Below, in pieces: positions 10,201 through 35,409 of a stretch of DNA of 45,265 bases. Source of the stretch: an uncultured Pelagibacteraceae bacterium (lineage in GTDB: Bacteria > Pseudomonadota > Alphaproteobacteria > Pelagibacterales > Pelagibacteraceae); contig CACAYA010000001.1 of assembly GCA_902536575.1 (NCBI GenBank), forward strand, positions 1 to 45,265. Direction: 5' to 3'. Made by a program: the position numbers and the translations under genes. The notes under the pieces were generated by a model that saw only the letters and a program-made list of their open reading frames with translations, made no database searches and was not told the origin of the DNA. Position 1 is the first letter of the stretch. The number at the start of each line of letters is the position of its first letter.

Positions 10201-11364
10201 TTCTATTGTTGGTGGTTCCCCAGGTCTAAGCATCTTATAAACTTCTGTAATTGCATCGTCTTTTGAATTATTTTTGTCATTTAAAATAGTAGTAAGTAAA
10301 TAAGGACCTTTATTAATAGAGTTTGTAACTGAAATTTGAAGTGAATGAATATTAGCATCTAAAATTTGTTGAATAACAGTGTCATTTAATTCTGTACCAA
10401 TTTTAAATGTTCCCTCTTCCTCTTCATTTACTTTAATATCTCTATGTAATATTTTACCAAATAAAGACTCTTTTGAAACTAAAATATCTTTAAGTCCATC
10501 ATTAGCTAATTTTTTAGCATTTAAAAAATTAATTTTATCACCTAAATTTATTACTACTTCACCTGTCTTTGCGTCAATAACTTCTTCTGAAAAATTTTTG
10601 GCTTTGTAGTTTTCAGGATTAAATTTTGTTTTCCATTTCTCTGTTTTTACATCAAAAGTATACTGCTCATTTTTATAAAACTCGTCTGCTATTTCAGCTT
10701 TAGTATATCCAAGTGCTAATAGTAAAGTGGATGCAAAAATTTTCTTTTTTCTATCAATTTTAAAATATAAAAAATCTTTTACGTCGTATTCAAAATCCAA
10801 CCAAGATCCTCTATTTGGTATTACTCGACAATTAAATAGAAGTTTGCCACTTGCATGAGTTTTGCCTTTATCGTGATCAAAGAAAACACCAGGACTTCTA
10901 TGCATCTGGTTAACTACAACTCTTTGGACACCATTAGTAATAAATGTTCCACTATTTGTCATCATTGGAACTTCACCCATGTAAACTTCCTGTTCCTTAG
11001 CTGACAAAATATCTTTTGTATTGTTATCCTGATCTATTTCATAAACGACTAATCTTAAAGTACATTTTAAAGCTGACGAATAAGTAAGTCCTCTTGTAAT
11101 ACATTCATCAACATCAAATTTTGGTTTTTCTAATCTATAAGAAACATATTCTAATGTTGCTTTATCGTTTAAGTCTTCAATAGGGAATATACTTTTAAAA
11201 ACTCTATCAAAACCTTTGGTTAAATCTGCTGCTTCGGAATTAAATTCAGTTAACTCTTTGTATGAGTTTTTTTGAACTTCAATTAAATTTGGTATTGATA
11301 AACTCTCTTTTAGTTTTCCAAAACTTTTTCTTATATTTTTCTTTTCAGTAAAGGATAATTGCAT
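7276..11364 (-). CDS. rpoB: RNA polymerase beta subunit
   Basis: 1362 aa; RpoB motifs ([64 protein letters not shown]). Confidence 0.99.
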
Positions 11365-11420
11365 TTATATTTATTAACACTGATTAAAAATAATCAGTAT
11401 TTGAATTCTTTCTAATTAAT

Positions 11421-11786
11421 CTATTTAAGTTCTACTTTAGCGCCTGCAGCTTCTAACTTAGCTTTGATCTCTTCTGCTTCTTTTTTGTTAACACCAGATT
11501 TAACTTCTTTTGGTGCTCCCTCAACTAGATCTTTAGCTTCTTTTAATCCTAATGAAGTAGCCGCTCTTACTTCTTTAATGACGTTAATTTTTTTTTCACC
11601 TGCAGAAACTAACATAATAGTAAAATCGTCTTTTTCTTCTGCTGGTGCTGCACCGCCTGCTGCTGCTGGAGCTGCTGCGGCCATTGGAGTTACACCCCAT
11701 TTTTCTTCTAATTGTTTTGAAAGTTCAGCTGCTTCAGCAACTGTTAAACTTGAAAGGTCTTCAATGATTTTGTTAAGGTCAGGCAT
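11421..11786 (-). CDS. rplL: 50S ribosomal protein L7/L12
   Basis: Ala/Gly hinge and C-terminal domain [34 protein letters not shown]. Confidence 0.98.
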
Positions 11787-11791
11787 ATCAA

Positions 11792-12313
11792 TTACTCTTT
11801 GGGTTGTGTTTCAGAATTTTCTGCGGTCAAACTACTCATTTTTTTCGAATGTGCAAGTAAAATGCTAATTAATTTAGAAGCTGGGGCGTTTAAAATACTC
11901 ACAATATTAGCTCTCGCTTCATCTAAAGTTGGTAAACTAGCTACATTTTGGACGCCAGCCTGATCCAGGACCTCATTATCCATTATACCACCAATTAATT
12001 TTAAATTTTCGTTATCTTTTGCAAATTTTGAGAGAATCCTTGCTGACATAATTGCATCTTCGCCAAAAGCAACAGCTGTTGGGCCAGTAAACAAATTTGT
12101 CAAATCCTTACATTTAGTTTTTTCTAATGCAAGTTTTGTGATTCTATTTTTAGTAATTTTGAAAACAATTCCATGTTGTCTCATTTTTGATCGTAAATCA
12201 TCTAACTGAGTCATAGTTAAACCTTGATAATGAGTAACCATAACAGCTTTACTGTTCTCAAATTTTGAAGTCATTTCTTCAATATAATTTTTCTTCTGCT
12301 CTTTGTTCATCAT
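11792..12313 (-). CDS. rplJ: 50S ribosomal protein L10
   Basis: L10-like sequence and rplKAJL order. Confidence 0.97.
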
Positions 12314-12315
12314 AA

Positions 12316-13005
12316 CTAAATCGACTTACCTAATTTAACTTTATAAGAAACTCCCATTGTAGAGGTAACAAAAATATTTTTTATTAAATCCCCTTTTAAT
12401 GTATTATTTAATTTTTCTTTTTCTAATGTTTCTAAGATAGCATTATAATTTTTCATTAATTGATCATTACTGAAAGATTTTTTTCCAATGCTTACTCCAA
12501 TATTACCATCTTTGTCGTTTCTTATTTCTACTTGACCTGATTTTGCATTTGTTACAGCCTCTTTAATATTATCAGACACAGAACCAAGTTTTGGATTTGG
12601 CATTAACCCTTTTGGTCCTAAGACTTTTCCTAATTTTGAAAGCTTAACCATCATTCCGGGTGTACATATTAATTTTTCAAAATTTAATTCACCCCCTTTA
12701 ATTTTGTCAACAAATTCATCACTACCAACAATATCTGCTCCAGCGTCTTTAGCTTCTTGCACTTTATTGTCCTCACAAACAACAGCAACTTTTACTTTTT
12801 TACCTGTACCACCTGGTAAATTAACTACTGTTCTAATATTAACTTCACTTTTCTTTTGTTTATTGTTTATTTGAAAACTTAAATCTAAAGACTCATCAAA
12901 TTTTGTCGTACAATTTTTTTTTAGCTCTGGTATCAATTTTTCAAAAGCCACAGGGGTTAGATCTTTTGTTTTTTCTGGTAACTTTTTAAATCTTTTTGAA
13001 GACAT
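12316..13005 (-). CDS. rplA: 50S ribosomal protein L1
   Basis: L1 motif LGPKGLMPNPKLGSV. Confidence 0.98.
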   Translation of the reverse strand: MSSKRFKKLPEKTKDLTPVAFEKLIPELKKNCTTKFDESLDLSFQINNKQKKSEVNIRTVVNLPGGTGKKVKVAVVCEDNKVQEAKDAGADIVGSDEFVDKIKGGELNFEKLICTPGMMVKLSKLGKVLGPKGLMPNPKLGSVSDNIKEAVTNAKSGQVEIRNDKDGNIGVSIGKKSFSNDQLMKNYNAILETLEKEKLNNTLKGDLIKNIFVTSTMGVSYKVKLGKSI

Positions 13006-20982: not shown

Positions 20983-22050
20983 CTAGTCTGCTTCTAGTTT
21001 GAGATCATTTCTATCAAATGTGTGCAAACCATCTAATTTAAAAGATAAACCAATTATATCATTTTCATTTCCAGGAGGTTGGTCTGAACTAATTGCAAAT
21101 ATTGATTTACCCGAAATGTTAAGTCCAACTATCCAATCTGCTCCAGTGGGTTGAATAGTTTCGATTGTACCATTGATATCTCCATTATCTTTTGATGTTA
21201 ATTTTATAGACTCTGGTCTTATGCCTAATGTTTTAACATTATTTTTATCAAACTTTGTTTTATTTAATAAACTTGAGGCTAATTGCTCACCATCATTAAA
21301 ATCTACTATATTCATTTGAGGACTTCCTACAAATTTTGCAACAAAAAGAGATTTTGGATTTTTATATATTTCCATTGGTTTTGCTAGCTGTTCAATTATT
21401 CCTTTATTCATAACTGCTATTGATGTAGCTAAAGTCATTGCTTCCATTTGATCATGTGTAACAAAAACAATAGTGCACCCTAAAGTTTGATGTAACCTTT
21501 TTAATTCTGCTCTCATTTCTAATCGAAGATTTGAATCTAAATTTGAGAGAGGTTCATCTAGTAGTAATAAATTAGGATTTACCGCCAACATTCTTGCCAG
21601 AGCAACCCTTTGTTGTTGTCCACCAGACAACTCAGACGGATATCTATTTTTAAGATTTTTAAGTTGGAAAAGCTTTTCTAATTCTTCAAATCTTTTATCT
21701 TTTTCAGAAGAAGACTCATTTTTCATATCAAGGCCAAAAACAATATTTTGGAATACAGTCATATGAGGCCAAAGCGCATAACTTTGAAACATTAAACCTA
21801 AGTTTCTTTTCTCGGTTTTTAAATATTCTCCTGTATTAGATGAAAAATAGGTTTGATCTCCACAGAATATTTCGCCGCTATCAGGTCTTTCTAATCCAGC
21901 AATCATTCTTAATGTTGTTGTTTTTCCACAACCAGAAGGCCCTAATAAACAAACAAATTCACCAGAAGGAAAAGTGACTGAAAGATTGTCAACAGCTAAA
22001 GAATTTCCTCCAAAATTTTTAACCAAAGAATTTAATTTTATCTCAGACAT
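20983..22050 (-). CDS. ABC transporter ATP-binding protein (FbpC/PotA-like)
   Basis: Walker A GPSGCGKTTTLRMIAGL, LSGGQQQRVALARML signature, Walker B LLLLDEPLSNLD, C-terminal TOBE-like region. Confidence 0.95.
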   Translation of the reverse strand: MSEIKLNSLVKNFGGNSLAVDNLSVTFPSGEFVCLLGPSGCGKTTTLRMIAGLERPDSGEIFCGDQTYFSSNTGEYLKTEKRNLGLMFQSYALWPHMTVFQNIVFGLDMKNESSSEKDKRFEELEKLFQLKNLKNRYPSELSGGQQQRVALARMLAVNPNLLLLDEPLSNLDSNLRLEMRAELKRLHQTLGCTIVFVTHDQMEAMTLATSIAVMNKGIIEQLAKPMEIYKNPKSLFVAKFVGSPQMNIVDFNDGEQLASSLLNKTKFDKNNVKTLGIRPESIKLTSKDNGDINGTIETIQPTGADWIVGLNISGKSIFAISSDQPPGNENDIIGLSFKLDGLHTFDRNDLKLEAD

Positions 22051-23868
22051 TTACCCTCCTAATCCTGAAGCTAAATTTGTTTTTGTAACTCTATTCAAAA
22101 TTAAAACCGATATCATAACCACTACGCCAATTATTAATATAGTAGCATTTGCCAACTGAGTATATCCAAAATCTAAAAATCTAATAGATTGGGTTGTGAG
22201 TAGCTCTGTTCCTGGAGTTACTAACATGACAACTAAACTTAGCTCTTTCATTCCTGTTATAAATGGAAGAATTATTGCAATTACAAGTGCAGATTTTTGT
22301 AATGGAGCCAATATTGAAACTATCCTTCTCCAAAAACCAGCACCTAAAACCATGCCGGCTTCCTCAGGTTCTGGTCCAACTTGCATCATTGCTGAAATAC
22401 CTGATCTCGATGCATAAGGTAAATAGGTTACTACCATAACCAGAATTAATAAACTAATTGATCCGTACAATGCAGGTATAGGTCCTCTAGCTACAGCAAA
22501 CAAAGAAAGGTAAGCTGCTGCAAATGCTAGACCTGGCATTAAATAAGGTAGGAAAGATATCTGTCTTAAAAAACCAGATATTAATGTTCCAGGCAAACGA
22601 ACAACTGCATAACCAATTAGTAAACCTAATGCACCACATATTATTGATGCAGATCCAGCAATAATAAAACTATTTTTAAGTGCAGTCAAAACTTCTGGAC
22701 TTGTAAACATTCCAGGTTGGTCCATTCCTGGCACATTAACACCCGTCCAATATGCTAAACCAAAATTAGAAAACGAAAAATTGCCTGGCTCCCTCATCAA
22801 AGTCGATAATGCTAAAACTACAAATGGTCCAAGAGCAGCTAATAAAAAAATTAGCCATGCAAATATTGTGGTTGGTGTTCTAAATAGTCCTAATTTAGAT
22901 GGTTGTCGTTTTATACCCTTCCCTCCTACTGTTACAAATCTTTGCCACTTTCTTACTACCCAAATATCAACAAGTAGCAACATTACACCAATTAAACTTA
23001 ATACAATTGCTAGTACAGCAACAACACCTGACTCATTTGATCTAACACTAGAGTAAAGTGAAGTTGAAAGTAATGTATATTTAGCAGGTGTTCCTAATAT
23101 ATATGGTGTAGCGAAGGTTCCTAAAGTTCTTGCAACTGTTAAAAGTAAAACTGACATGGTAGTTGGAATCAACAGTGGTAAAATAATTTTTGTCCAAATA
23201 GCTTTTGTTTTTGCTCCTAGAGTTGAAGCAACTTCTTCCAACTGTATATCTATTTTACTAAGTGCACTTGAAAATAAAAGAAAAGCAAATGGAAAGTAAC
23301 TTAGTGCCATACAAATAGAAATTGGCAAGGGTCCATATGCAAGCCAATCTGGAGGTGTAAATCCAAAAGATTCTAACATACCAGGTGGACCACTTATTTT
23401 TCTATTTTTAAACATTGTAAGCCATGCAGTAGCCATAGCTTGTGAAGGAAGCATGTAAGGTATAATTAATAAAAATCCTAAATATCTTCGTCCAAAAATA
23501 TTAGTGCTAGTAACTAATGATGCTAAAATTAATCCTAATGCTAATGCAATTAAAGTTGCAAAAAAAGATACAGTTATAGAGTTTTTTAAAGGTGTCCAAA
23601 AGATTTTTTCACTTATCGATGATGTAAAAACTCTTTCTACATACTTGTAAGTAAACGCTCCATCTTTCCCCCCAGATAACATTGCATCCATCATAGTTAG
23701 GGATACAGAGTTAGAAAATATTGAAATTATTGGCGCAATAACAAGATAAGTTAAGATTATTACAAGAATTGATCCAATTATAAAACTAGGTTGTAATAAC
23801 AACTGTGAAATTTTTATTTTTATACGAATTAATAAGGAATTTTGATTTGTAGGATTTAAAGAAACCAA
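22051..23868 (-). CDS. ABC transporter permease, fused two-domain (FbpB-like)
   Basis: 605 aa with two permease halves, each with an EAA-like loop (LEEVASTLGAKTKAIWTKIILPLL; EEAGMVLGAGFWRRIVSILAPL). Confidence 0.93.
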   Translation of the reverse strand: MVSLNPTNQNSLLIRIKIKISQLLLQPSFIIGSILVIILTYLVIAPIISIFSNSVSLTMMDAMLSGGKDGAFTYKYVERVFTSSISEKIFWTPLKNSITVSFFATLIALALGLILASLVTSTNIFGRRYLGFLLIIPYMLPSQAMATAWLTMFKNRKISGPPGMLESFGFTPPDWLAYGPLPISICMALSYFPFAFLLFSSALSKIDIQLEEVASTLGAKTKAIWTKIILPLLIPTTMSVLLLTVARTLGTFATPYILGTPAKYTLLSTSLYSSVRSNESGVVAVLAIVLSLIGVMLLLVDIWVVRKWQRFVTVGGKGIKRQPSKLGLFRTPTTIFAWLIFLLAALGPFVVLALSTLMREPGNFSFSNFGLAYWTGVNVPGMDQPGMFTSPEVLTALKNSFIIAGSASIICGALGLLIGYAVVRLPGTLISGFLRQISFLPYLMPGLAFAAAYLSLFAVARGPIPALYGSISLLILVMVVTYLPYASRSGISAMMQVGPEPEEAGMVLGAGFWRRIVSILAPLQKSALVIAIILPFITGMKELSLVVMLVTPGTELLTTQSIRFLDFGYTQLANATILIIGVVVMISVLILNRVTKTNLASGLGG

Positions 23869-23891
23869 TTTAACCTCTCTAAAAGATTTAT

Positions 23892-23917
23892 AAGGCGGTG
23901 TAAAATTACACCGCCTT
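23892..23917 (-). terminator. Stem-loop between substrate-binding protein and permease genes
   Basis: AAGGCGGTGTAA-2 nt-TTACACCGCCTT, 12 bp perfect arms; weak T-tract, so could be attenuator or mRNA-stabilising hairpin. Confidence 0.7.
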
Positions 23918-23940
23918 TATATTAACATTAAGCTAACTTT

Positions 23941-25053
23941 TTAATTACTGTGTTTAATCCAAAAATCCATCAGATCAGCTCTACGGTTAGCAACATTAGT
24001 ATTATTTGAAACTAATAAAGAACCTTTCCAAGACTCAGCTGTTGGATATGGGTTATCAGGACTTGAGCCTAAAGATGAGTTAGATGAATACGCTCCTACT
24101 ACACCAACCCATGGATTTGCACCTTCTTGAGTAAGCACATAATATGCAAGTAATCTAGCTGCATTTGGATGCGGAGCTCCTTTTACAATTTGCATATATG
24201 TAGGCTGATTTAAACCTTTAAACGGATCTACTTCACATAAAGCTAATGCTAAATTTTTCTTAGCATTTTCTCTATGACGTCCTAAAGAGTAAATTCCAAT
24301 AGGAGCTTTACTTTGACCTTTAGTTCCTACAGCAACCGCTATTTCATAATCTTCATTATATAAAACAGGGTTGTTTTTTGCTAATCTTTTTACAAACTCT
24401 AGCCCTGCATTTGCTTCTGTAACTTTAAGATCTTTTCCATAATGTTTTTTGTAAGATGCAGCTAATTCATCTGATCTATCTTCCATTGCTGAAAACATTT
24501 GAATCATCGAAGATGCTATACGTGGATCCCACATATGAAATCTTCCAGCCCAATCTTTTTCAGTCAATTGCCACAATGATTTAATTGGACAACTATTTCC
24601 GTAAGTTTCAGAATTATAACCAATCACAAAAGGTTGCCATAAATAAATTAATGGTTTGCTACTATCTGCAGGAATATCTTTAGCAACATAAGGTGGCACA
24701 TAATTTTCAACCATTCCTTTTGGAGTTAGAACAGTGTCTAAAAACGGTCCATCATCATAGCCAACTAAATCGACTATTACATTTCCTGAACTAACTTCTC
24801 TTACTATTCTCTCTGTCATTTCAGAGTCTTTCATTTTTGTTGCATTAACTTTAATTCCGTATTTTGCCTCGAAAGCTGCAGCAACTTTTTTACCCATACG
24901 GCTTGAGTGCCAATATGTGTTTACTTCTCCTTCTTTTTGAGCAGCCGCAATCAATTCATCCAAAGTCATTGCAAACGAAACAACTGGCTGAAGAAATAAA
25001 GTCAGTCCAAAAAAGAATGAAGTAACTAAACTAATAATTTTTTTCTTAGTCAT
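23941..25053 (-). CDS. ABC transporter substrate-binding protein (Fe3+/AfuA-like family; substrate uncertain)
   Basis: Signal peptide, LIAAAQKEGEVNTYWHSSRMGKKVAAAFEAKYGIKVNATK, upstream of permease and ATPase. Confidence 0.92.
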   Translation of the reverse strand: MTKKKIISLVTSFFFGLTLFLQPVVSFAMTLDELIAAAQKEGEVNTYWHSSRMGKKVAAAFEAKYGIKVNATKMKDSEMTERIVREVSSGNVIVDLVGYDDGPFLDTVLTPKGMVENYVPPYVAKDIPADSSKPLIYLWQPFVIGYNSETYGNSCPIKSLWQLTEKDWAGRFHMWDPRIASSMIQMFSAMEDRSDELAASYKKHYGKDLKVTEANAGLEFVKRLAKNNPVLYNEDYEIAVAVGTKGQSKAPIGIYSLGRHRENAKKNLALALCEVDPFKGLNQPTYMQIVKGAPHPNAARLLAYYVLTQEGANPWVGVVGAYSSNSSLGSSPDNPYPTAESWKGSLLVSNNTNVANRRADLMDFWIKHSN

Positions 25054-25200: not shown

Positions 25201-25977
25201 ATGTCAAATAAATCTGAATTAGTAAAAATATTTGAAAGTGCAGCAAGAGAGGCTGGGAAATTAATCAAAAAAGAATTTGGGAAAGTTGCTGAGTCAAAAG
25301 TTCAATCAAAAGATTTAGGAGATTTCGTTACGAATACTGATTTGGAAACTGAGAATATCTTACTTAATTTACTAAAAAAATATTTTCCAAACTCATCATA
25401 TTTAACAGAGGAGTCTGATCCATTTAAAGGTAACGATGAAACTATAGTTATTGATCCAATTGATGGAACTATTAATTTTATTCATGGAATTCCTTCTATA
25501 GGAATAGTAATTGCTAGAGTTTATAAAGAAGAAATTACCGATGGAATTATATTTAATCCGGTGTCTGATGAGTTATTTTTTGCAACTAAAGATAAAGGAG
25601 CTTGGTGTAATAATGAAAAATTGATGGTTTCACAGAATAAAGAAATTGCTAACAGTTTAATTGGAGCAACAATTCCACATGCTAATCGTGGATACAAAAA
25701 TTATTTAAACGAGATTGATAATGTTGCTAAAAAATGTGCAGGATTTAGATGCACAGGTTCAGCAGCAATTGATCTAAGTTTAGTAGCAAGTGGAAAAACT
25801 GATGCTTTTTATCAAAGAAATCTAAGTTTATGGGATATGTGTTCAGGAGTTTTAATTGTTAAGGAAGCTGGAGGATTGGTTACCCAACCGAATGGTGATG
25901 AATGGACAATCGATTCAACTGACATACTCGCATCTAATAGATTTATACATGAACAAGTTCAAGTTAACTTTAAATAA
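25201..25977 (+). CDS. Inositol monophosphatase family protein (SuhB-like)
   Basis: DPIDGTINFIHGIPSIGIVIA, TEESD, LWDMCSGVLIVKEAGG. Confidence 0.93.
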   Translation: MSNKSELVKIFESAAREAGKLIKKEFGKVAESKVQSKDLGDFVTNTDLETENILLNLLKKYFPNSSYLTEESDPFKGNDETIVIDPIDGTINFIHGIPSIGIVIARVYKEEITDGIIFNPVSDELFFATKDKGAWCNNEKLMVSQNKEIANSLIGATIPHANRGYKNYLNEIDNVAKKCAGFRCTGSAAIDLSLVASGKTDAFYQRNLSLWDMCSGVLIVKEAGGLVTQPNGDEWTIDSTDILASNRFIHEQVQVNFK

Positions 25978-26931: not shown

Positions 26932-28374
26932 TTATTTTAAAGCGTTGACAAAAAATGGAACTGCTATTTCAACAGTTTCTTTTCCATGATCTCCACCAAT
27001 TGTGACTCCTCTTTCTCCACATTTTTTGTACATTTTAATATATATCTTTTTATATAATTTATTGGCTGCCCCTGGTTTTGTAGATGCCTTCTCAAATTTT
27101 TCCCTCCATTTTTTTAAATCCATATTAAAGGCTTCTTTAAAAATATCAGTTTGTTTTTCATGAATGAACCCATCGTCATTCATAACCCACCCTTCAGGAA
27201 CATAAATTTCACATTTATTAAAATGTACAGCATCAGCGCTGTGGTTAGGTGGTGCATCATTATAAAAGTCATGGTACCAACCTTCTTTCACAATTACCTC
27301 AACATTGCCTCCAGCTTTTTTCATTTTTTCCGCATAAGCAACACAAAACTTTGCAAGTGTATAATCATCAGCACCTCCAAGTAAAAATAATATTTTTGTA
27401 GGAGTTGGGGTTGGTTTATCAAATGCTACATTAAAACAATCTGGAGCCATTGGAAGTGAAGCTTTATAATAATTTTCTTCTCCAAGAACTACATCTGAGA
27501 ATTTTTTCTCTACTGCCATATTTGCAGCCATTCCACCTCTTGAATGACCTGTAATACCTAATTTTTTTGCATCAACTCTTGGGTGTTTATCCAGTATTTT
27601 ATAAGCTACTAAAGCATCTAGCTCTCCAGCATTTACAGAAACTTTACCTTGATTAGAACCTGTACTTTTTGCTCCTCTACCTGTAAAACTATCTATTTCA
27701 AAAATACCAATATTATTTTTTAAAAGTTGATTTCTAAAAACGTTACGCCAAGACTGAGTTGGGGATGTAAAGCTACTGGGCCCTCCGCTACCATGGACAG
27801 TTACAACAACTGGTAAATTTTTACCTTCCTTTGGTAAAATTAGTTTTCCAGATACTTCAACAGGAGAGTTTACATAAGATCCATTGATTATTGTTAAGGG
27901 AATACCAGGATTGTAGCTAGTAAATTTTATTATTTCCTCTGTTGCTTCACTTAAATATTTTAAAGGGGTAAAATGCGGAGGACGATTTACTTTAAAAAAC
28001 CTTCCATTGCATTTCCAAGGAGGATTCAGTGCAGCTCTACCTTTTAAGATTGCCTCTTTATCATTAATAAATTCACCTGAATAATTTACATTTGCCTGAT
28101 AACCATCTTTAAAGGTTAGTGAATGGGAAATTTTGATTTTATTTGCCTCAATTTTTCCTTTAAATTTAATATTTTTAGCCCCATATTCAATTCTATTAAA
28201 TGGCCCTAGTGAAAATTTATTGTTTTCTACATTTACAACAAAAGCAGACTCATACCATTCATATTTTCCTTGTTTACATTGAATATCCATTTTCCATGAG
28301 TTGGGATATTCGTTAGCTAATAAATTATTGTAAAACAATAAACTTAGAACCACGATCCCTAAAAGTTTTTTCAT
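26932..28374 (-). CDS. Secreted alpha/beta hydrolase (dienelactone hydrolase-like)
   Basis: Signal peptide; HGSGGPSSFTSPTQSWRN, nucleophile elbow GITGHSRGGMAANMA, C-terminal EGWYHDFYNDAPPNH. Confidence 0.85.
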   Translation of the reverse strand: MKKLLGIVVLSLLFYNNLLANEYPNSWKMDIQCKQGKYEWYESAFVVNVENNKFSLGPFNRIEYGAKNIKFKGKIEANKIKISHSLTFKDGYQANVNYSGEFINDKEAILKGRAALNPPWKCNGRFFKVNRPPHFTPLKYLSEATEEIIKFTSYNPGIPLTIINGSYVNSPVEVSGKLILPKEGKNLPVVVTVHGSGGPSSFTSPTQSWRNVFRNQLLKNNIGIFEIDSFTGRGAKSTGSNQGKVSVNAGELDALVAYKILDKHPRVDAKKLGITGHSRGGMAANMAVEKKFSDVVLGEENYYKASLPMAPDCFNVAFDKPTPTPTKILFLLGGADDYTLAKFCVAYAEKMKKAGGNVEVIVKEGWYHDFYNDAPPNHSADAVHFNKCEIYVPEGWVMNDDGFIHEKQTDIFKEAFNMDLKKWREKFEKASTKPGAANKLYKKIYIKMYKKCGERGVTIGGDHGKETVEIAVPFFVNALK

Positions 28375-28550
28375 ATAATAAACTATAATTTTTTATCTTT
28401 TTAAGTACAAGTTTAGTAAAAGTCTGAACAAATTTATTAACCTTTATTTTCTAAGATTAATTGAGAGCTAAATTTAATTTATATGATTTTATAGGATATT
28501 TAAGCCTAACTTGGACTACCACGGACTGACTCACTTGTGAATCCCTCAGC

Positions 28551-28569
28551 TTTTAAGTCCTTTGCGTCT
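28551..28569 (-). pseudogene. Possible tRNA-Leu(TAA)-like anticodon-arm fragment
   Basis: ttttaagtcctttgcgtct versus ttttaagtcctttgtgtct in tRNA-Leu at 20858-20876: 18/19 identical; flanking sequence does not fold as a tRNA. Confidence 0.4.
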
Positions 28570-28624
28570 AGGTAGGACAAAATTAAAGATGAATAAATAT
28601 TTTTAATAATTATGATTATAATTA

Positions 28625-28828
28625 ATGAAAAAAGATATTGTTAAGTCTCACTTAAAAAAAAAATCACAATCAAAGCTTGCTTTATCAATTAGCCTATTTA
28701 TTGTACTTTTAACCTCTACTGGATACATCTTTAATTCTAAAGGAATAATTTTTCTATTCTATATTGCTTGTTTTGTATTTCTCTACAATTTAGTAATCCA
28801 CTTCTTATTAGAAAAGTTTGATATTTAA
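28625..28828 (+). CDS. Small two-TM membrane protein
   Basis: 67 aa ORF with Lys-rich N-terminus and two hydrophobic segments. Confidence 0.5.
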   Translation: MKKDIVKSHLKKKSQSKLALSISLFIVLLTSTGYIFNSKGIIFLFYIACFVFLYNLVIHFLLEKFDI

Positions 28829-28830
28829 TT

Positions 28831-28977
28831 ATGATTAAAACGCTCATTAAATTAAAGATTTTAAAATTAATACTAATTGGTGGTGTATCAGGAGCTTATG
28901 TCTTAAAGAGATATTGTTATCAAAAAAATAAAGCAAAAAGTAAAAAAGATAAAAATCCATTGCTTCCTATGCAATGA
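28831..28977 (+). CDS. Small one-TM basic protein (48 aa)
   Basis: ATG...TGA: MIKTLIKLKILKLILIGGVSGAYVLKRYCYQKNKAKSKKDKNPLLPMQ; 2 nt after the previous small ORF. Confidence 0.4.
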   Translation: MIKTLIKLKILKLILIGGVSGAYVLKRYCYQKNKAKSKKDKNPLLPMQ

Positions 28978-29017
28978 AAATTTTGCGTACGTTTTTGCTC
29001 ACATTTAATATTGTAAT

Positions 29018-29812
29018 CTAGTATTTTACGACTTTACCCCATAAAGATTGTGATGGTCCATAGCCTAGTCTCGCATCCTCCATTTTAAGAACCCTACTAT
29101 GGTCAATCATCATATTTATACCTGGTCCATAAATTTCGATATATTTTGATAATACATCTTGATCATCGGCCTCAACCATAAACTGATTTAATTCTAATGG
29201 ACTGATAATTTTATCAATTGTATTCCACCTATAATTTTTTTTATCAAGATTTTCTGTTAAACCCTCAGATTCAAGTAATATTTTCCATGAACCTGCCTCA
29301 AGAAACCTTTTGGATTGCATTTTAATTCTTTCTATAAAAATTTCCTCCTCAATAACCTTAGAGTGTGCAAATGCAACACCAACCTCATTAATAACTTTAA
29401 TTCCTTTACTTGATGTGTTTTCAATCAATCTACACATTTCGTCATCATCTAAAGAACGAGCTATACTTGAGATTTCGATTATATCTATGCCCAGACTTAC
29501 AACTGTATTCAAATAATCATCTACTACTTCTTTTCCACCAGATAATGCAACATCCATAATTGGATTTCCTAATGCAATTTGAACACTATGTTTTTTACAA
29601 GTTTCAATAAATCTTAAAAGAGACTTTTTACTCATCATAGCACCTTGTTTTCCTGAAATCTTAAAGATATCGACAACGCTTGCATACGCTTCTAGGTAAT
29701 CATCAATGCAATTTCCTACCATCACAGGTGCTCTAACGTAATTTATACCTGTCTCACGAGGTTTTTCCTCTCTTTTTATAAAAGGTAATTTTGGAAATGT
29801 TATATCTGTCAT
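29018..29812 (-). CDS. ComA-like (phosphosulfolactate synthase family) protein
   Basis: VVDIFKISGKQGAMMSKKSL, LGIDIIEISSIARSL, GIKVINEVGVAF, INMMIDHSRVLKMEDARLGYGPSQSLWGKV; start placed at MTDITFPKLP. Confidence 0.75.
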   Translation of the reverse strand: MTDITFPKLPFIKREEKPRETGINYVRAPVMVGNCIDDYLEAYASVVDIFKISGKQGAMMSKKSLLRFIETCKKHSVQIALGNPIMDVALSGGKEVVDDYLNTVVSLGIDIIEISSIARSLDDDEMCRLIENTSSKGIKVINEVGVAFAHSKVIEEEIFIERIKMQSKRFLEAGSWKILLESEGLTENLDKKNYRWNTIDKIISPLELNQFMVEADDQDVLSKYIEIYGPGINMMIDHSRVLKMEDARLGYGPSQSLWGKVVKY

Positions 29813-29826
29813 TACAAATTTTTTAT

Positions 29827-31812
29827 TTAATTCAATTGTCCACCCAGCCACCAAGGTAAATCGATAAATAATCCAATTAATCCGTTTGGAAACTGTAAAG
29901 TTAACAGTGAGGATAACGCCCAGAGTATTACCATTAATGCTGCAGAAATGCAAATTGATGAAACATAAGCTTTCTTATTATGAAAAAGTATAAATAAATT
30001 AATAAAAAGTGCTGCAGCAATAGGAAAACCAAAAATAAAATTCATTAATAGAAAACCAATAAAGCTTAAATAATAATAAATTTGAATTTTGAAATTACCA
30101 CCAATTTCAAAAATATTTGATCGAGCAAATTTAATTATGGTGTAATTTAAAAATGACAAATTTTTTAAATCTGCAATTTTTATTATAAGTATAAATGTTA
30201 ATAGAAAAAAAGCTATTAGACTGAGGCTTATTGGAAACAAGTTAGCTCTATAGTCTAAATTGATAGTAAACCATATCATTGATAAAGGAAGACATAACAA
30301 TATAATATTATAATAAATTTGTGTGAGCTTTCCTTTAACAAAATCAGATCTATAATATTTGTCAAATTTCTGTTTCGTCAAAAGTACGATTGTAGCAAGA
30401 CATAAAATTATTAAAATTATTGAAACTGGACGAGTTAAAAAACTTAATCCATAAACAGCTTGAGTTTGGTAACTTAGAAGTTCAACTTTAGTTGATAAAA
30501 AGAAACCTATTAAAAGAGCTGGCCTAGACCAGCCAAAATTTTTAAAGGTAATACCAATTAAACCAAAAGACATTAATCCAATAAAATCATACCAGTCTCT
30601 ATTAAAGTTAAATGTTGCAAAAAAAATTAAACAAACCATGACCGGTGCAAGTATGTAATATGGAACTAAAGTAAATTTTGAAATTTGAGATGAAAAACCC
30701 ATACAAATTCCAGCACCCAAGATATTTGCAATAGCTAAAGACCAAATCATTAGATAAGTAAGATCTAGGTTTGTCGTTACCATATCTAAACCAGGTTCAA
30801 TTCCAATCAATACAAAGCCTCCAAGTAATAAAACTTTGTTACCAGAACCTGGTATTCCAAAAATCAAAGTTGGAATTAATGCACCTCCCTCTTTTGCATT
30901 ATTAGCAGACTCAGGTGCTATAACTCCACGAATATCACCTTTACCAAATTGAGAAGTATCTTTTGTTGTTTGTTTTAAGTGACTATATGCAATCCAATCA
31001 ACTACTGTTCCTCCTAAACCCGGTAAGGCACCAACTAGACAACCAAGAGTAGAACATCTTAAAACTAAAAACCAATTTTTTACTACATCCTTTAAACCTG
31101 TGAACCAACCCTTTTTAGTATTAAGTGATTTAGCAATAGAGCCTTTAGCATCAAGAAGTCCAACAATTTCAGGAATTGCAAACAATCCTAATCCGACAAC
31201 AACAAGAGGTACTCCCTCTAAAAGATATAATGTATCAAATGTATATCTTGGATCTCCAGTAATTGGAGCAGTTCCAATTGATCCAATAATTAATCCTAAA
31301 AAACAAGAGGCAATACCTTTAAATAAGTTGTCACCTGTAAGAGCTCCAACCATTAGTAAAGCAAGGACTACTAAAAGAAATTGTTCTCCAAATCCAAATG
31401 CCATTATTATTGGAATGGCGTAATAAATTGATATTGATAATATTAACGCTCCAAAGACACCTCCAAGCAATGAAGCACTGAAAGCTGCGCTCAACGCTCT
31501 TGCTGCCATACCTTTTTTAGATAACGGAAATCCATCCATTACTGTTGCTTGAGAACCTGATGTGCCAGGTACTCCCATTAGTACTGCAGGAAATGTATCT
31601 GAAGTCGTCGTTGGTGCCAAAACTCCAATCATCATTGCAAGAGCATGTGATGGTTCCATTGTAAAAACAAAAGGTAAAACTAGCGCTAAACCAGATGTTC
31701 CACCCATGCCTGGAAGTATACCAACAATTAAACCAAGTAAAGTACCAGCAAATAGAAAAGCTAAATGAGTAGGCTCAAAGAGTTGAAAAAGTGCAGCTAA
31801 TAATTGTTCCAT
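29827..31812 (-). CDS. TTT family transporter large permease TctA with a C-terminal TctB-like extension
   Basis: TctA motifs GLIVGILPGMGGTSGLALVLPF, GVPGTSGSQATVMDGFPL, ALPGLGGTVVDWIAY, FGIPGSGNKVLLLGGF; about 160 aa extra hydrophobic C-terminus. Confidence 0.9.
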   Translation of the reverse strand: MEQLLAALFQLFEPTHLAFLFAGTLLGLIVGILPGMGGTSGLALVLPFVFTMEPSHALAMMIGVLAPTTTSDTFPAVLMGVPGTSGSQATVMDGFPLSKKGMAARALSAAFSASLLGGVFGALILSISIYYAIPIIMAFGFGEQFLLVVLALLMVGALTGDNLFKGIASCFLGLIIGSIGTAPITGDPRYTFDTLYLLEGVPLVVVGLGLFAIPEIVGLLDAKGSIAKSLNTKKGWFTGLKDVVKNWFLVLRCSTLGCLVGALPGLGGTVVDWIAYSHLKQTTKDTSQFGKGDIRGVIAPESANNAKEGGALIPTLIFGIPGSGNKVLLLGGFVLIGIEPGLDMVTTNLDLTYLMIWSLAIANILGAGICMGFSSQISKFTLVPYYILAPVMVCLIFFATFNFNRDWYDFIGLMSFGLIGITFKNFGWSRPALLIGFFLSTKVELLSYQTQAVYGLSFLTRPVSIILIILCLATIVLLTKQKFDKYYRSDFVKGKLTQIYYNIILLCLPLSMIWFTINLDYRANLFPISLSLIAFFLLTFILIIKIADLKNLSFLNYTIIKFARSNIFEIGGNFKIQIYYYLSFIGFLLMNFIFGFPIAAALFINLFILFHNKKAYVSSICISAALMVILWALSSLLTLQFPNGLIGLFIDLPWWLGGQLN

Positions 31813-31819
31813 AAAAAAA

Positions 31820-31849
31820 GCTGCTAGCTAATAGCTAGCAGCGCTTTTT
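31820..31849 (-). terminator. Intrinsic terminator-like hairpin between tctC and tctA
   Basis: gctgctagct-aat-agctagcagc, 10 bp perfect arms, A/T tracts on both sides. Confidence 0.8.
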
Positions 31850-31858
31850 TTATTTGTT

Positions 31859-32932
31859 CTATTGAACTCTATAAGTGAATTTATGTTTCTTTAAAGCTGC
31901 ATTTAATTGCTTTTTAGTAGTATCAGAAAATACTGCAGCCTTTTTAATAATTTCACCAGCTTCTTCTCCTATGATTAATGGAAATGGTCCAAGAGCTTTT
32001 TCAGCTTTAGCCTTAAACTCTGGATCTTTTGTCATTTTAATAGCTGCATCTCTGTATGCTTTAACTATTTCATCCGATGCATCTTTTGGAAGCATCATTG
32101 CTTTAGATGCTTGAGACCATGCAGCACCTATTGCGTAATATGCTTCAAGGTCATCACCTTCAAGTTTTTTACCATTTACCTTCTCATACATTTCAGGAAA
32201 AGTAGGTGCATTTGGTGCCAAAGGATTTCTAGAAACTGAACCATCAGATCCTATAATTCCTAATGTCATTAAATCTACAACTTTTCCTTTTTCTATTTCA
32301 GGCTTAACTTTTTTTACATAATTTGCTGCACCGTGTGAACTTAGATGAATTTCGCCTCTAAGGAATGCTTGATAACCTCCAGAAGATGAAAGACCAGGTA
32401 TAGGTTTAGCTCCCTTTATACCAAGCTTATCATAGATCCATATGTGAAATAAATCTGCAGATGCAGGAGTTTTCAATGCATAAAGAACCAACTTTCTTTC
32501 TTTAATTTTTGATAGATCATGAGGTTCAGCTAAATCTGAACGTGTAAACCAATGAGTATTTTGTGGTAGCAAAACTACTGGTCTATATTCACTAAGATTA
32601 TATTTAACAAGTGGATTTCCAGTGGCAACATTAACTATAACTGAAGTTGAGCATCCAAAAATAAATGTTCCATCTGCTTTAGCATTTTTTTCAAAATAAT
32701 TTGAACCTTTAATAGCTCCACCTCCTGGTATATGCATGATTTGGACATCAGGATTTCCAGGTAAGTATTTTTTTAAGAAAGGTTGAATGAATCTTGCAAA
32801 TCTGCTGGTACCACCACCTTCTTTAAATGGTACGACCCATGTAATTGTTTTGCCTGAGAAATTCACATCTGCACTCGAAACAGATACAAATGAGAATAAC
32901 GACATTATTATAAGTATTAAAATTTTACGCAT
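31859..32932 (-). CDS. TTT family extracytoplasmic substrate-binding protein (TctC-like)
   Basis: Signal peptide; FSGKTITWVVPFKEGGGTSRFARFIQPFLKKYLPGNPDVQIMHIPGGGAIKGSNYF. Confidence 0.9.
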   Translation of the reverse strand: MRKILILIIMSLFSFVSVSSADVNFSGKTITWVVPFKEGGGTSRFARFIQPFLKKYLPGNPDVQIMHIPGGGAIKGSNYFEKNAKADGTFIFGCSTSVIVNVATGNPLVKYNLSEYRPVVLLPQNTHWFTRSDLAEPHDLSKIKERKLVLYALKTPASADLFHIWIYDKLGIKGAKPIPGLSSSGGYQAFLRGEIHLSSHGAANYVKKVKPEIEKGKVVDLMTLGIIGSDGSVSRNPLAPNAPTFPEMYEKVNGKKLEGDDLEAYYAIGAAWSQASKAMMLPKDASDEIVKAYRDAAIKMTKDPEFKAKAEKALGPFPLIIGEEAGEIIKKAAVFSDTTKKQLNAALKKHKFTYRVQ

Positions 32933-32985
32933 ATTTTCCCCCCCTCGAGAATGTTGATTTAGAACTATAACTTGTTCATTATGGG

Positions 32986-33029
32986 TTTTTCAACTAGTAT
33001 ATTCCAAATTTAAACAGTAAGTTGAAAAA
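32986..33029. repeat. Inverted repeat in divergent tctC / ComA-like intergenic region
   Basis: TTTTTCAACT (32986-32995) and AGTTGAAAAA (33020-33029), perfect 10 bp arms, 24 nt apart. Confidence 0.6.
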
Positions 33030-33041
33030 TGCTGAAAATAC

Positions 33042-33947
33042 TTGAGAATTGATGCTTTTGACTTATACAAAGCTTTAAAAAACATGTCAAAAAGCACAAA
33101 TTCAATAAAAAAAATTTTTAATTTAAGCAGTATTGGATCAAAGCCTCGAAAAAAATCACAACTATGGATGAAAGACGTAGGTTTTGATGAAGCACCATGG
33201 TATCGCGAAAGAATGGGACTTCGGGAGTTAGAAGATTTTCTAGAAGTTGCTGATAATAGAATAGATCACGTTAAAATTACAACATTGCAAGTTCTGGGTC
33301 ACCCGAAGGAGTGGTTGGAACGTAAGATTAAACTTTACAAAAAGCATTCAATTCAACCTTACTTGGACCATGGTTACTTTTTAAAAGCTTTTAAAAAGGG
33401 AAAAGTAAATGAAGCTATTGATACTGCGGCTGATTTAGGATTTTCAGCAATGGAGTTCATGAATACGTTTGGAGACATACCTGAAAATCAAATCAAAGAT
33501 TGGTGTAATCGCGCAATTAAAAATGGAATGAATATAATTTATGAGCATCATCCAGAAAGCGGATGGAGAAAAACAAAAAAAAATATCCCTACTACATTGA
33601 AACAAATTACTGAAAGTGCAGATCGGTTTTTTGATTACGGTGCATTTGCTATGCTTATTGATCATGAAGAAATAGAACTGCATGATAGTAAGTCAAATGT
33701 GTTAGTTGGAGTACTAGAACATTACGGAAAAAGTGTTGTAGCGTTTGAAGTTACATCGCCTAAGGAAGCTGAAACGAGATGGTATTCGGATATCCTTAAT
33801 TATTTTAAACTCTTTGGTTCAGACTGCAATTTAACTAATATTATGCCCAGCCAAGTAATGCTAATTGATCTATTAAGGTCTGGAGAGAGACCTGCAAATA
33901 TTTTATTTGATAGATTTCCAGAATTGACTTCAGTAAAAGATAAATAA
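33042..33947 (+). CDS. ComA-like (phosphosulfolactate synthase family) protein, second type
   Basis: LEDFLEVADNRIDHVKITTLQVLGHPKEWLERKIKLYKKHSIQPYLDHGYFLKAF, CNLTNIMPSQVMLIDLLRSG; ORF starts TTG, ATG at 33084 is a likely alternative. Confidence 0.7.
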   Translation: MRIDAFDLYKALKNMSKSTNSIKKIFNLSSIGSKPRKKSQLWMKDVGFDEAPWYRERMGLRELEDFLEVADNRIDHVKITTLQVLGHPKEWLERKIKLYKKHSIQPYLDHGYFLKAFKKGKVNEAIDTAADLGFSAMEFMNTFGDIPENQIKDWCNRAIKNGMNIIYEHHPESGWRKTKKNIPTTLKQITESADRFFDYGAFAMLIDHEEIELHDSKSNVLVGVLEHYGKSVVAFEVTSPKEAETRWYSDILNYFKLFGSDCNLTNIMPSQVMLIDLLRSGERPANILFDRFPELTSVKDK

Positions 33948-34026
33948 AACTAAATAAAATTTATTGTAATAATCATGCTTATTGGTAACATGTTTTGATT
34001 ATTAGACAATAGTGTTGTAAGAAAAA

Positions 34027-35409
34027 TTATAAAATCTTTAATACTGCTATAGATGGTGTAAATTCAAAAAGAATAAAAAACAAACTTGTTTCTTTGTCGT
34101 ATTTTATGTCCCTTATTCTTTTAGAATTAAACCAAATTCTATCTTCCTTCAGAATTTTATCAAATTCACTATTCATTTCATAAATATAAACTGATCCTGC
34201 TCTTAGTGATGAAACATACATATAATCTTTATTGTCAGGACTTTCATCTTTTGGAAGATGCTCTAATTGACTTATGCCTATAGCTGGAGTGTACCATTTA
34301 AAAGGTTCATCAAAGCCATATTTTTCATGTGATTTTAAAAGTGTATCGGGTCCAACATAATTTACTCCATAGGACGCAATAGCCCAACCATAGTTGGGAA
34401 TTCTATTCTTATTTTTATTTAAATAATTAATATTAATCTCATCTCCACCTTTAGGGCCATGCTCTGTATTTACAATAATATTTTTAGTCTCGATAAATTT
34501 AAGACCTTGCGGATTTCTATGACCAATCGAAACGAATTCAAATTCTCGAGTATCTTTGTCTATTGCAATAATTTTTCCAAGTGTATTTTCTTTACTTTGA
34601 GCAGCTGGCCACATACCTTGAAAACCAACTGAGAATAATATTTTATTATCTTTATATTTTTCGAGACGCCCCCCTGAATATACATTGTAACCTGCCCAAT
34701 AATGATCGGTTATAAAAAAATCTTCAAAAAATAAATTCTCATAATTTAATTTTGCTTGATATGCATTTATAGTAATACCTCTTTCATTTTGCGAAAGCAT
34801 AGATATGTAAACTTTATCATCCTCAAAATATAAATCTCTAATACCAATTAATTTAGAATTATCTTTTTCTAAAATATTTTTAAGATTATTTTTAATGACA
34901 GACTGATTTAATTTTTGACTGCTTATGTTTTGCTTATCAAAATAAATTGTTTCTGCTTCTCCAGAAATGACAATAACTTTATCACCTATAATTTCAAAAT
35001 GATGAGCTCTTCTTGAATTTTCTTCACCATGCCATCCTAGACTTAGATCTAAACGCTTAAAGGGTAAAAAAAACTCCTTTAATTCAAATTTATCTTTATA
35101 ATTGTCTGAAATGAATATCTCAGTATTAAATAGATTGCCTTCGTAACCTTGTTCATATTTGTCGACTTGTGTTTTATAAAATTTATTCCTTTCTTTTAAA
35201 TGAGGTATAATGAATATTACATCTCTAGCTTTTTGATATACAGGAGTTGGTATAATATTTTTAAAAAAAAGAATTAATCTATTTTGCTTGTCATGTCCTC
35301 CACTGACAGCAATCCATGCTAACGAAAATGACAAGATGCCCAAAAAAATTAAAAATAAAATCAGAGTTTTAATTTTGTTATTAGACATAGTTTGAAAAAT
35401 TTTGATCAT
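34027..35409 (-). CDS. Membrane-anchored PQQ-type sugar dehydrogenase/beta-propeller (GSDH family)
   Basis: N-terminal TM; SIGHRNPQGL, NTEHGPKGGDEIN, NYGWAIASYG. Confidence 0.75.
   Translation of the reverse strand: MIKIFQTMSNNKIKTLILFLIFLGILSFSLAWIAVSGGHDKQNRLILFFKNIIPTPVYQKARDVIFIIPHLKERNKFYKTQVDKYEQGYEGNLFNTEIFISDNYKDKFELKEFFLPFKRLDLSLGWHGEENSRRAHHFEIIGDKVIVISGEAETIYFDKQNISSQKLNQSVIKNNLKNILEKDNSKLIGIRDLYFEDDKVYISMLSQNERGITINAYQAKLNYENLFFEDFFITDHYWAGYNVYSGGRLEKYKDNKILFSVGFQGMWPAAQSKENTLGKIIAIDKDTREFEFVSIGHRNPQGLKFIETKNIIVNTEHGPKGGDEININYLNKNKNRIPNYGWAIASYGVNYVGPDTLLKSHEKYGFDEPFKWYTPAIGISQLEHLPKDESPDNKDYMYVSSLRAGSVYIYEMNSEFDKILKEDRIWFNSKRIRDIKYDKETSLFFILFEFTPSIAVLKIL

Follow-up and report, generated by a model that had tools for sequence, protein, structure and literature searches.

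Which compound is taken up and processed by a tripartite tricarboxylate transporter (TTT) whose genes are bracketed by two different proteins resembling the phosphosulfolactate synthase ComA? The question is raised by positions 29018-33947 of a 45,265-nt stretch of DNA (contig CACAYA010000001.1, assembly GCA_902536575.1), referred to here as the window, from a SAR11 genome of 0.93 Mb. The original prediction had described a TctC binding protein and a TctA(B) permease lying between one ComA-like protein in the operon and another encoded divergently, a layout that was confirmed here for all four genes with corrected boundaries. It had also suggested that the locus serves a sulfonate or a phospho/carboxylic acid; carboxylic acid uptake remains the better part of that suggestion, the informative neighbors of related loci being uronate and aldarate enzymes, and the sulfonate part was not supported. 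Our tentative preference is that the module takes up and processes a sugar-derived polyacid (either a uronate or an aldarate, for instance galactarate or glucarate, or else a modified version that might be sulfated), with ComA folds reused for this role. The locus itself is real, conserved and uncharacterised, is misnamed by annotation, and is built as a variant of known parts.

Gene boundaries and transporter components

The locus comprises the following features, with coordinates given in the window.

29018-29812, minus strand: ComA1, a ComA-fold TIM-barrel enzyme of 264 aa, last gene of the tctC-tctAB-comA1 operon
29827-31812, minus strand: TctA with a C-terminal membrane extension (tctAB), a permease of 661 aa
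31859-32932, minus strand: TctC, a periplasmic solute-binding protein of the TctC/Bug type, encoded at the head of the operon
32933-33083, no strand assigned: 151-bp spacer separating tctC from comA2, presumed from its place between divergent genes to be a promoter region
33084-33947, plus strand: ComA2, a second, distinct ComA-fold enzyme of 287 aa from its likely ATG, divergent from tctC

For both ComA1 and ComA2, shorter ATG starts were adopted instead of the TTG starts first listed because homologues support them; the ComA1 start was set to the ATG at 29812, the listed TTG at 29953 being one that would overlap tctA. A search of positions 28300-34100 against Rfam gave no match.

Two TTT components, a TctA permease and a TctC/Bug binding protein, are present. 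TctA matched Pfam PF01970 over residues 17-434 (E = 7.6e-119). The remaining residues 435-661 (~220 aa) gave no Pfam TctB match and a separate tctB gene is absent; the length and hydrophobicity of this extension suggest that it is presumably a fused TctB. TctC alone had no Pfam or NCBIfam match, and its assignment comes from a profile of its orthologues, which matched solved TctC/Bug proteins with E values of 2e-7 to 2e-5 (6hke at E = 7.6e-6; also 2dvz).

Family, fold and phylogeny of ComA1 and ComA2

The earlier assignment of both proteins to the ComA family was borne out by sequence and by structure. ComA1 (161.8 bits) and ComA2 (136 bits) scored above the 25.2-bit cut-off of Pfam PF02679, and far below the 280-bit cut-off of the archaeal ComA equivalog TIGR03849 (73.3 and 67 bits, respectively). 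By this curated sequence model, neither is a phosphosulfolactate synthase. Structure searches with AlphaFold2 models (mean predicted local distance difference test scores of 84 for ComA1 and 80 for ComA2) returned Methanocaldococcus jannaschii ComA (1qwg) as the best match for both, with E values of 2.9e-16 and 2.2e-15. Membership in another TIM-barrel family was ruled out, as the next unrelated fold appeared at ~1e-7 and 1qwg was ahead by about eight orders of magnitude.

Phylogenetic placement and residue comparisons were carried out with 69 sequences, in a tree whose deep branches are long and of unsure order. The set of genuine ComA proteins (n = 5) included those of M. jannaschii, Bacillus subtilis and two alphaproteobacteria, and one with an XcbC-like neighbor; of the two alphaproteobacterial proteins, at least that of G103 has an adjoining ComB-like gene, as judged by eye. 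These five formed a single group (support 99/96). ComA1 (100/100) and ComA2 (100/100) formed two separate clades outside it that are not sisters of each other, in agreement with the proposal that the two proteins are clearly different.

Distribution and conservation of the module

A scan of genome contigs identified 31 Pelagibacteraceae loci with ComA1 orthologues at 91-97% identity, 30 of which carry the complete module with its gene order unchanged, the remaining one ending at a contig edge. The nearest named relatives of ComA1 are in Pelagibacteraceae single-cell genomes (95-97% identical). Seven further loci at 69-72% identity were found in gammaproteobacterial metagenome-assembled genomes (L098, L099, L100 and L106), in SAR116 bacteria (L101 and L102) and in L103. 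All four genes are present in six of the seven, and a GntR regulator occupies the ComA2 position in L103. In the SAR116 and gammaproteobacterial loci, TctC orthologues (72-77% identical) adjoin TctAB and ComA1, and ComA2 orthologues (46-50%) occur in the same position as in SAR11. Because an identity of 69-72% spans classes, these data point to horizontal transfer. Among ~398 other Pseudomonadota genomes, the ComA2 clade had no clear members and two weak matches.

Locus L103 (PBZO01000010.1) is filed as Candidatus Pacearchaeota and encodes GntR-TctC-TctAB-ComA1 with products 69-77% identical to the bacterial ones; it is probably a misbinned or mislabelled bacterial contig.

A survey of 297 genomes of the family, in addition to the window genome, turned up four more carriers, which identifies the module as accessory; the two ComA genes are always ~4 kb apart. 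The ratio of nonsynonymous to synonymous substitution rates (dN/dS) between SAR11 strains was ~0.04-0.14 for all four genes, indicating purifying selection, and together with the conservation of the genes this ruled out degenerate pseudogenes. Given its intact recurrence in dozens of genomes and the selection acting on all four genes, the arrangement is not due to chance. Conserved linkage of the ComA-like genes to the transporter, a check proposed when the locus was first described, was thus observed across Pelagibacteraceae, SAR116 and gammaproteobacteria.

Active-site residues

Comparison with the ComA active site, another of the proposed checks, went largely against the sulfonate idea. Residues D40, K43, E103, E133, E205, G220 and R240 are retained in both ComA1 and ComA2. 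However, Lys137, Arg170 and the Gly45/Gly47/Thr48 residues of the GWGT loop, all present in five of five genuine ComA proteins, are lost from both. The Lys137 position, considered catalytic in ComA, is Ala in ComA1, Glu in ComA2, and Leu in the gammaproteobacterial and SAR116 orthologues of ComA2. Arg170 is replaced by Glu in both proteins, the loop residues by Ser/Lys/Gln in ComA1 and Thr/Leu/Gln in ComA2, and Glu79, invariant in genuine ComA, by Asp in ComA1 and Leu in ComA2. Since all 18 other ComA-like proteins, drawn from mixed genomic contexts, retain Lys137, its loss is probably derived in the ComA1 and ComA2 groups. A lysine at this position in both proteins had appeared in an alignment with few close relatives and was rejected as a gap artefact; the 69-sequence alignment shows Ala and Glu, and the Glu before this position is followed by no gap.

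Each clade has strictly conserved residues of its own, namely E181-S182-E183-G184-T186-E187 and D237 in ComA1, and D95, H96, E124, N127, E154, H156, D193, H194, E195, E196 and E222 in ComA2. This is the pattern expected of active sites, and it argues against the idea that one or both proteins are non-catalytic sensors or regulators of the transporter. That idea would account for the loss of residues invariant in ComA, and for the divergent position of SAR11 ComA2 next to tctC, where a LacI or GntR regulator lies in L098 and L103. L098, however, has a LacI regulator and ComA2 together, and we regard a purely regulatory role as very improbable.

Evaluation of a sulfonate substrate

ComA joins sulfite to phosphoenolpyruvate (PEP) and needs phosphosulfolactate; no sulfolactate kinase was seen near the module. 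If an organosulfonate such as sulfolactate were imported, the ComA-like enzymes could work in the reverse direction or accept a related sulfonate, and we consider this improbable. Consistent with it are the PF02679 membership of both proteins, the listing of SlcHFG as a TTT for sulfolactate (PMC5812351), a gene for sulfoacetaldehyde acetyltransferase (Xsc) scoring above its cut-off in four of four near-complete carriers, and a ComA-like locus (L046) next to a TauE/SafE-family gene. Against it stand the low equivalog scores, the separation of both clades from genuine ComA, and the loss of Lys137, Arg170 and the GWGT loop. Additionally, ComB (PF04029) was found in none of five carriers, with control matches obtained in B. 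subtilis and M. jannaschii, and no recognised sulfonate- or sulfolactate-degrading gene occurs in any SAR11, SAR116 or gammaproteobacterial locus with the module. Xsc is likewise unlinked, lying ~80 kb away on the same contig in G644. Its presence suggests that carrier SAR11 strains probably degrade some sulfonate; sulfonate uptake and processing by the module itself, as originally proposed, is not supported.

Sugar-acid genes associated with the module

A genomic context that suggests a sugar-derived acid is found in gammaproteobacteria, where the module (L098, L099, L100 and L106) is embedded in a larger uronate/aldarate cluster. One strand of this cluster encodes a Gli-like amidohydrolase (best solved match 4mup, E 3.5e-82), ComA2 and, directly after it, a Gci-like MR/MLE enzyme (4ggb, E 4.1e-160). 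The other encodes LacI, TctC, TctAB and ComA1, followed by a uronate dehydrogenase (3rft, E 5.6e-71) and an HpcH/HpaI aldolase whose best solved match is 2-dehydro-3-deoxygalactarate aldolase (1dxe, E 5.5e-41); the L100 contig ends inside the uronate dehydrogenase gene. As Udh-, Gli- and Gci-like enzymes and a terminal aldolase share one cluster, these neighbors together represent the oxidative uronate pathway (Udh/Gli/Gci) published for Agrobacterium (PMC6353982). A TTT system for galactarate/glucarate is known in Halomonas (Leyn 2017, in Table 1 of PMC5812351). On the Allorhizobium ampelinum plasmid pAtS4c, the last gene of an operon that also encodes a GntR regulator and a sugar-type ABC transporter specifies a protein 48% identical to ComA2, which has no other plasmid relative near 50%.

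Sulfatase genes were observed beside ComA-like and TTT genes in three lineages (L100:10890-12452, L099 at ~10889-12445, L058:5313-6836 and L057:7097-8521); in L099 and L100 the gene lies between those for ComA1 and the uronate dehydrogenase. The encoded proteins have a CxPxR motif and no evident signal peptide, both judged by eye, and look cytoplasmic. As a weak lead, such signal-less sulfatases would be consistent with some hosts importing a sulfated sugar acid.

Carrier SAR11 genomes (five, four of them near-complete) were compared with nine non-carriers, in small counts uncorrected for relatedness. One type of MR/MLE sugar-acid dehydratase-like gene was present, away from the module, in five of five carriers and the other type in four of four near-complete carriers, vs one of nine non-carriers for each. 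An aldolase sharing 53-55% identity with the L098 enzyme occurred, likewise outside the module, in all five carriers vs three of nine non-carriers at that level. One carrier, G677, also encodes a member of the galactarate dehydratase family and a protein resembling tartronate semialdehyde reductase. In 15 of the 31 SAR11 loci, a gene of the tartronate semialdehyde reductase/3-hydroxyisobutyrate dehydrogenase family (335 aa) adjoins and converges on ComA2 (e.g., L072:4835-5842 and L073:4835-5839); this neighbor is frameshifted in L088 and absent from the window.

A large sugar-acid island was also observed in one SAR11 carrier (L161, at positions 57001-76000 of G677 contig 4, and L160). It holds genes for a TRAP transporter, for MR/MLE enzymes and for members of the galactarate-dehydratase and dihydroxy-acid-dehydratase families, together with an additional TTT accompanied by SDR and kinase genes. 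Elsewhere in the window, positions 20983-25053 encode an ABC importer (ATPase, fused permease and binding protein) that weakly resembles 2-aminoethylphosphonate transporters and is adjoined by an inositol-monophosphatase-family gene at 25201-25977.

Several observations weigh against a sugar-derived acid. The uronate operon surrounds the module only in closely related gammaproteobacteria, where the pathway is complete without any ComA protein. Udh and Gli were not found in SAR11 carriers, in searches that had no positive control in these genomes, and the module has no sugar-acid enzyme next to it in the window. Within SAR11, shared ancestry and not function may account for the co-occurrence of the module with sugar-acid genes. 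The names of 4ggb and 4mup in the search output were uninformative, and these two structures are taken here to be the Agrobacterium cycloisomerase (Gci) and lactone isomerase (Gli), respectively. Finally, the nearest relatives of ComA1 outside the marine module (34-38% identical; a sister clade) directly adjoin MmgE/PrpD genes in 31 of 42 loci, which span many phyla, and the closest matches to TctC in the class are encoded with tricarboxylate genes (PrpF, TcuA/B or PrpD).

Evaluation of a tricarboxylate substrate

The MmgE/PrpD-, PrpF- and TcuA/B-linked relatives of ComA1 and TctC make a tricarboxylate the main rival and a serious alternative, although we consider it unlikely on the whole. The TTT would then import a C6 tricarboxylate or close relative (aconitate, tricarballylate or an alkylcitrate), on which the ComA-fold proteins would act as hydro-lyases or C-C lyases. 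MmgE/PrpD genes also lie next to or near a ComA-like gene on Salinibacter, Methylosinus and Haladaptatus plasmids (L064, L065 and L066), and other alphaproteobacterial ComA-like genes sit with TctABC, PrpD, PrpF and a TcuA-like flavoprotein. Moreover, the same genome encodes a paralogous fused-type TTT (TctC, TctAB) ~66 kb beyond the module, beside a PrpF/4-oxalomesaconate tautomerase gene (L191:5370-9740, G000 contig 1); this second TTT is probably a tricarboxylate system. In SAR11, SAR116 and gammaproteobacteria, however, the four genes are not linked to any MmgE/PrpD, PrpF or aconitase gene, and sugar-acid genes are found there instead. ComA1 has also diverged to ~35% identity from the MmgE/PrpD-linked group, with Gly75 changed to Asn, Glu79 to Asp, and Gln at the Lys137 position to Ala.

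The pairs of MmgE/PrpD and ComA-like genes (31 of the 42 loci L107-L148), whose ComA-like products have Gln at the Lys137 position, were observed in Chloroflexota, Planctomycetota (Brocadia), Acidobacteriota, Nitrospirae and Chlamydiae, among other phyla. Similar pairs occur in Salinibacter, in Methylosinus and, with the two genes not adjacent, in Haladaptatus; the copies on plasmids carry the annotation phosphosulfolactate synthase.

Proposed function and implications

For the favored sugar-derived acid, TctC would bind the acid in the periplasm and TctAB would import it, presumably in an ion-coupled manner as in the TTT family. ComA1 and ComA2, in which the acidic barrel core is retained, would no longer join sulfite to PEP and would each most likely use metal-stabilised enolate chemistry in which proton removal next to a carboxylate is followed by elimination or isomerisation. 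Their step would feed the imported acid into a 2-keto-3-deoxy-acid route and an aldolase. The substrate class, metal use and reaction type of both enzymes are predictions. Sugar-acid and tricarboxylate substrates would have in common several carboxylates and an elimination or isomerisation, either of which would fit enolate chemistry on a ComA fold.

We put forward only cautiously the more specific proposal that ComA1 and ComA2 represent two new ComA-fold enzyme families acting on sugar-derived acids (lyases or isomerases working through a metal-bound enolate), with a dedicated TTT importer, spread in SAR11, SAR116 and marine gammaproteobacteria. A literature search returned nothing combining ComA-like proteins with TTT systems or with MmgE/PrpD.

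SAR11 ranks with the most abundant groups of marine bacteria, and uptake by its individual strains largely determines which parts of the dissolved organic carbon are removed. If uronates or aldarates are indeed what the module imports, it would name a carbon source of these strains that annotation now misreads as sulfonate metabolism. Public records label relatives across the ComA-like family as phosphosulfolactate synthase, including some that have lost the ComA residue set; were our reading true, comA counts would overstate sulfolactate production when used as its marker. The case also opens to testing the question of which other reactions the ComA fold supports.

Comparison with known systems

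The module shares features with four known systems and differs from each of them. With ComA (EC 4.4.1.19; M. jannaschii 1qwg and B. subtilis 1u83), ComA1 and ComA2 share the Pfam family, the TIM-barrel and the core residues D40, K43, E103, E133, E205 and R240. In contrast to it, they are 20-27% identical, lie outside its clade, lack Lys137, Arg170 and the GWGT loop, have no ComB partner and are linked to a transporter. SlcHFG of Roseovarius and Chromohalobacter, as entered in Table 1 of PMC5812351, is alike in transporter type, whereas our module has two ComA-fold proteins in place of a linked sulfolactate dehydrogenase or sulfo-lyase gene.

TctABC of Halomonas (galactarate/glucarate) is likewise a TTT, likened here by type and not by sequence, and the gammaproteobacterial module is also linked to aldarate-type catabolic genes; in the table entry for the Halomonas system, however, ComA-fold enzymes are not mentioned. 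The oxidative uronate pathway of Agrobacterium (PMC6353982) differs from the SAR11 carriers in having Udh and Gli, which were not found in them. Its Udh-, Gli- and Gci-like genes do cluster with the module in gammaproteobacteria, where the cluster ends in an HpcH/HpaI aldolase and not in KdgD, and adds a TTT and two ComA-fold proteins.

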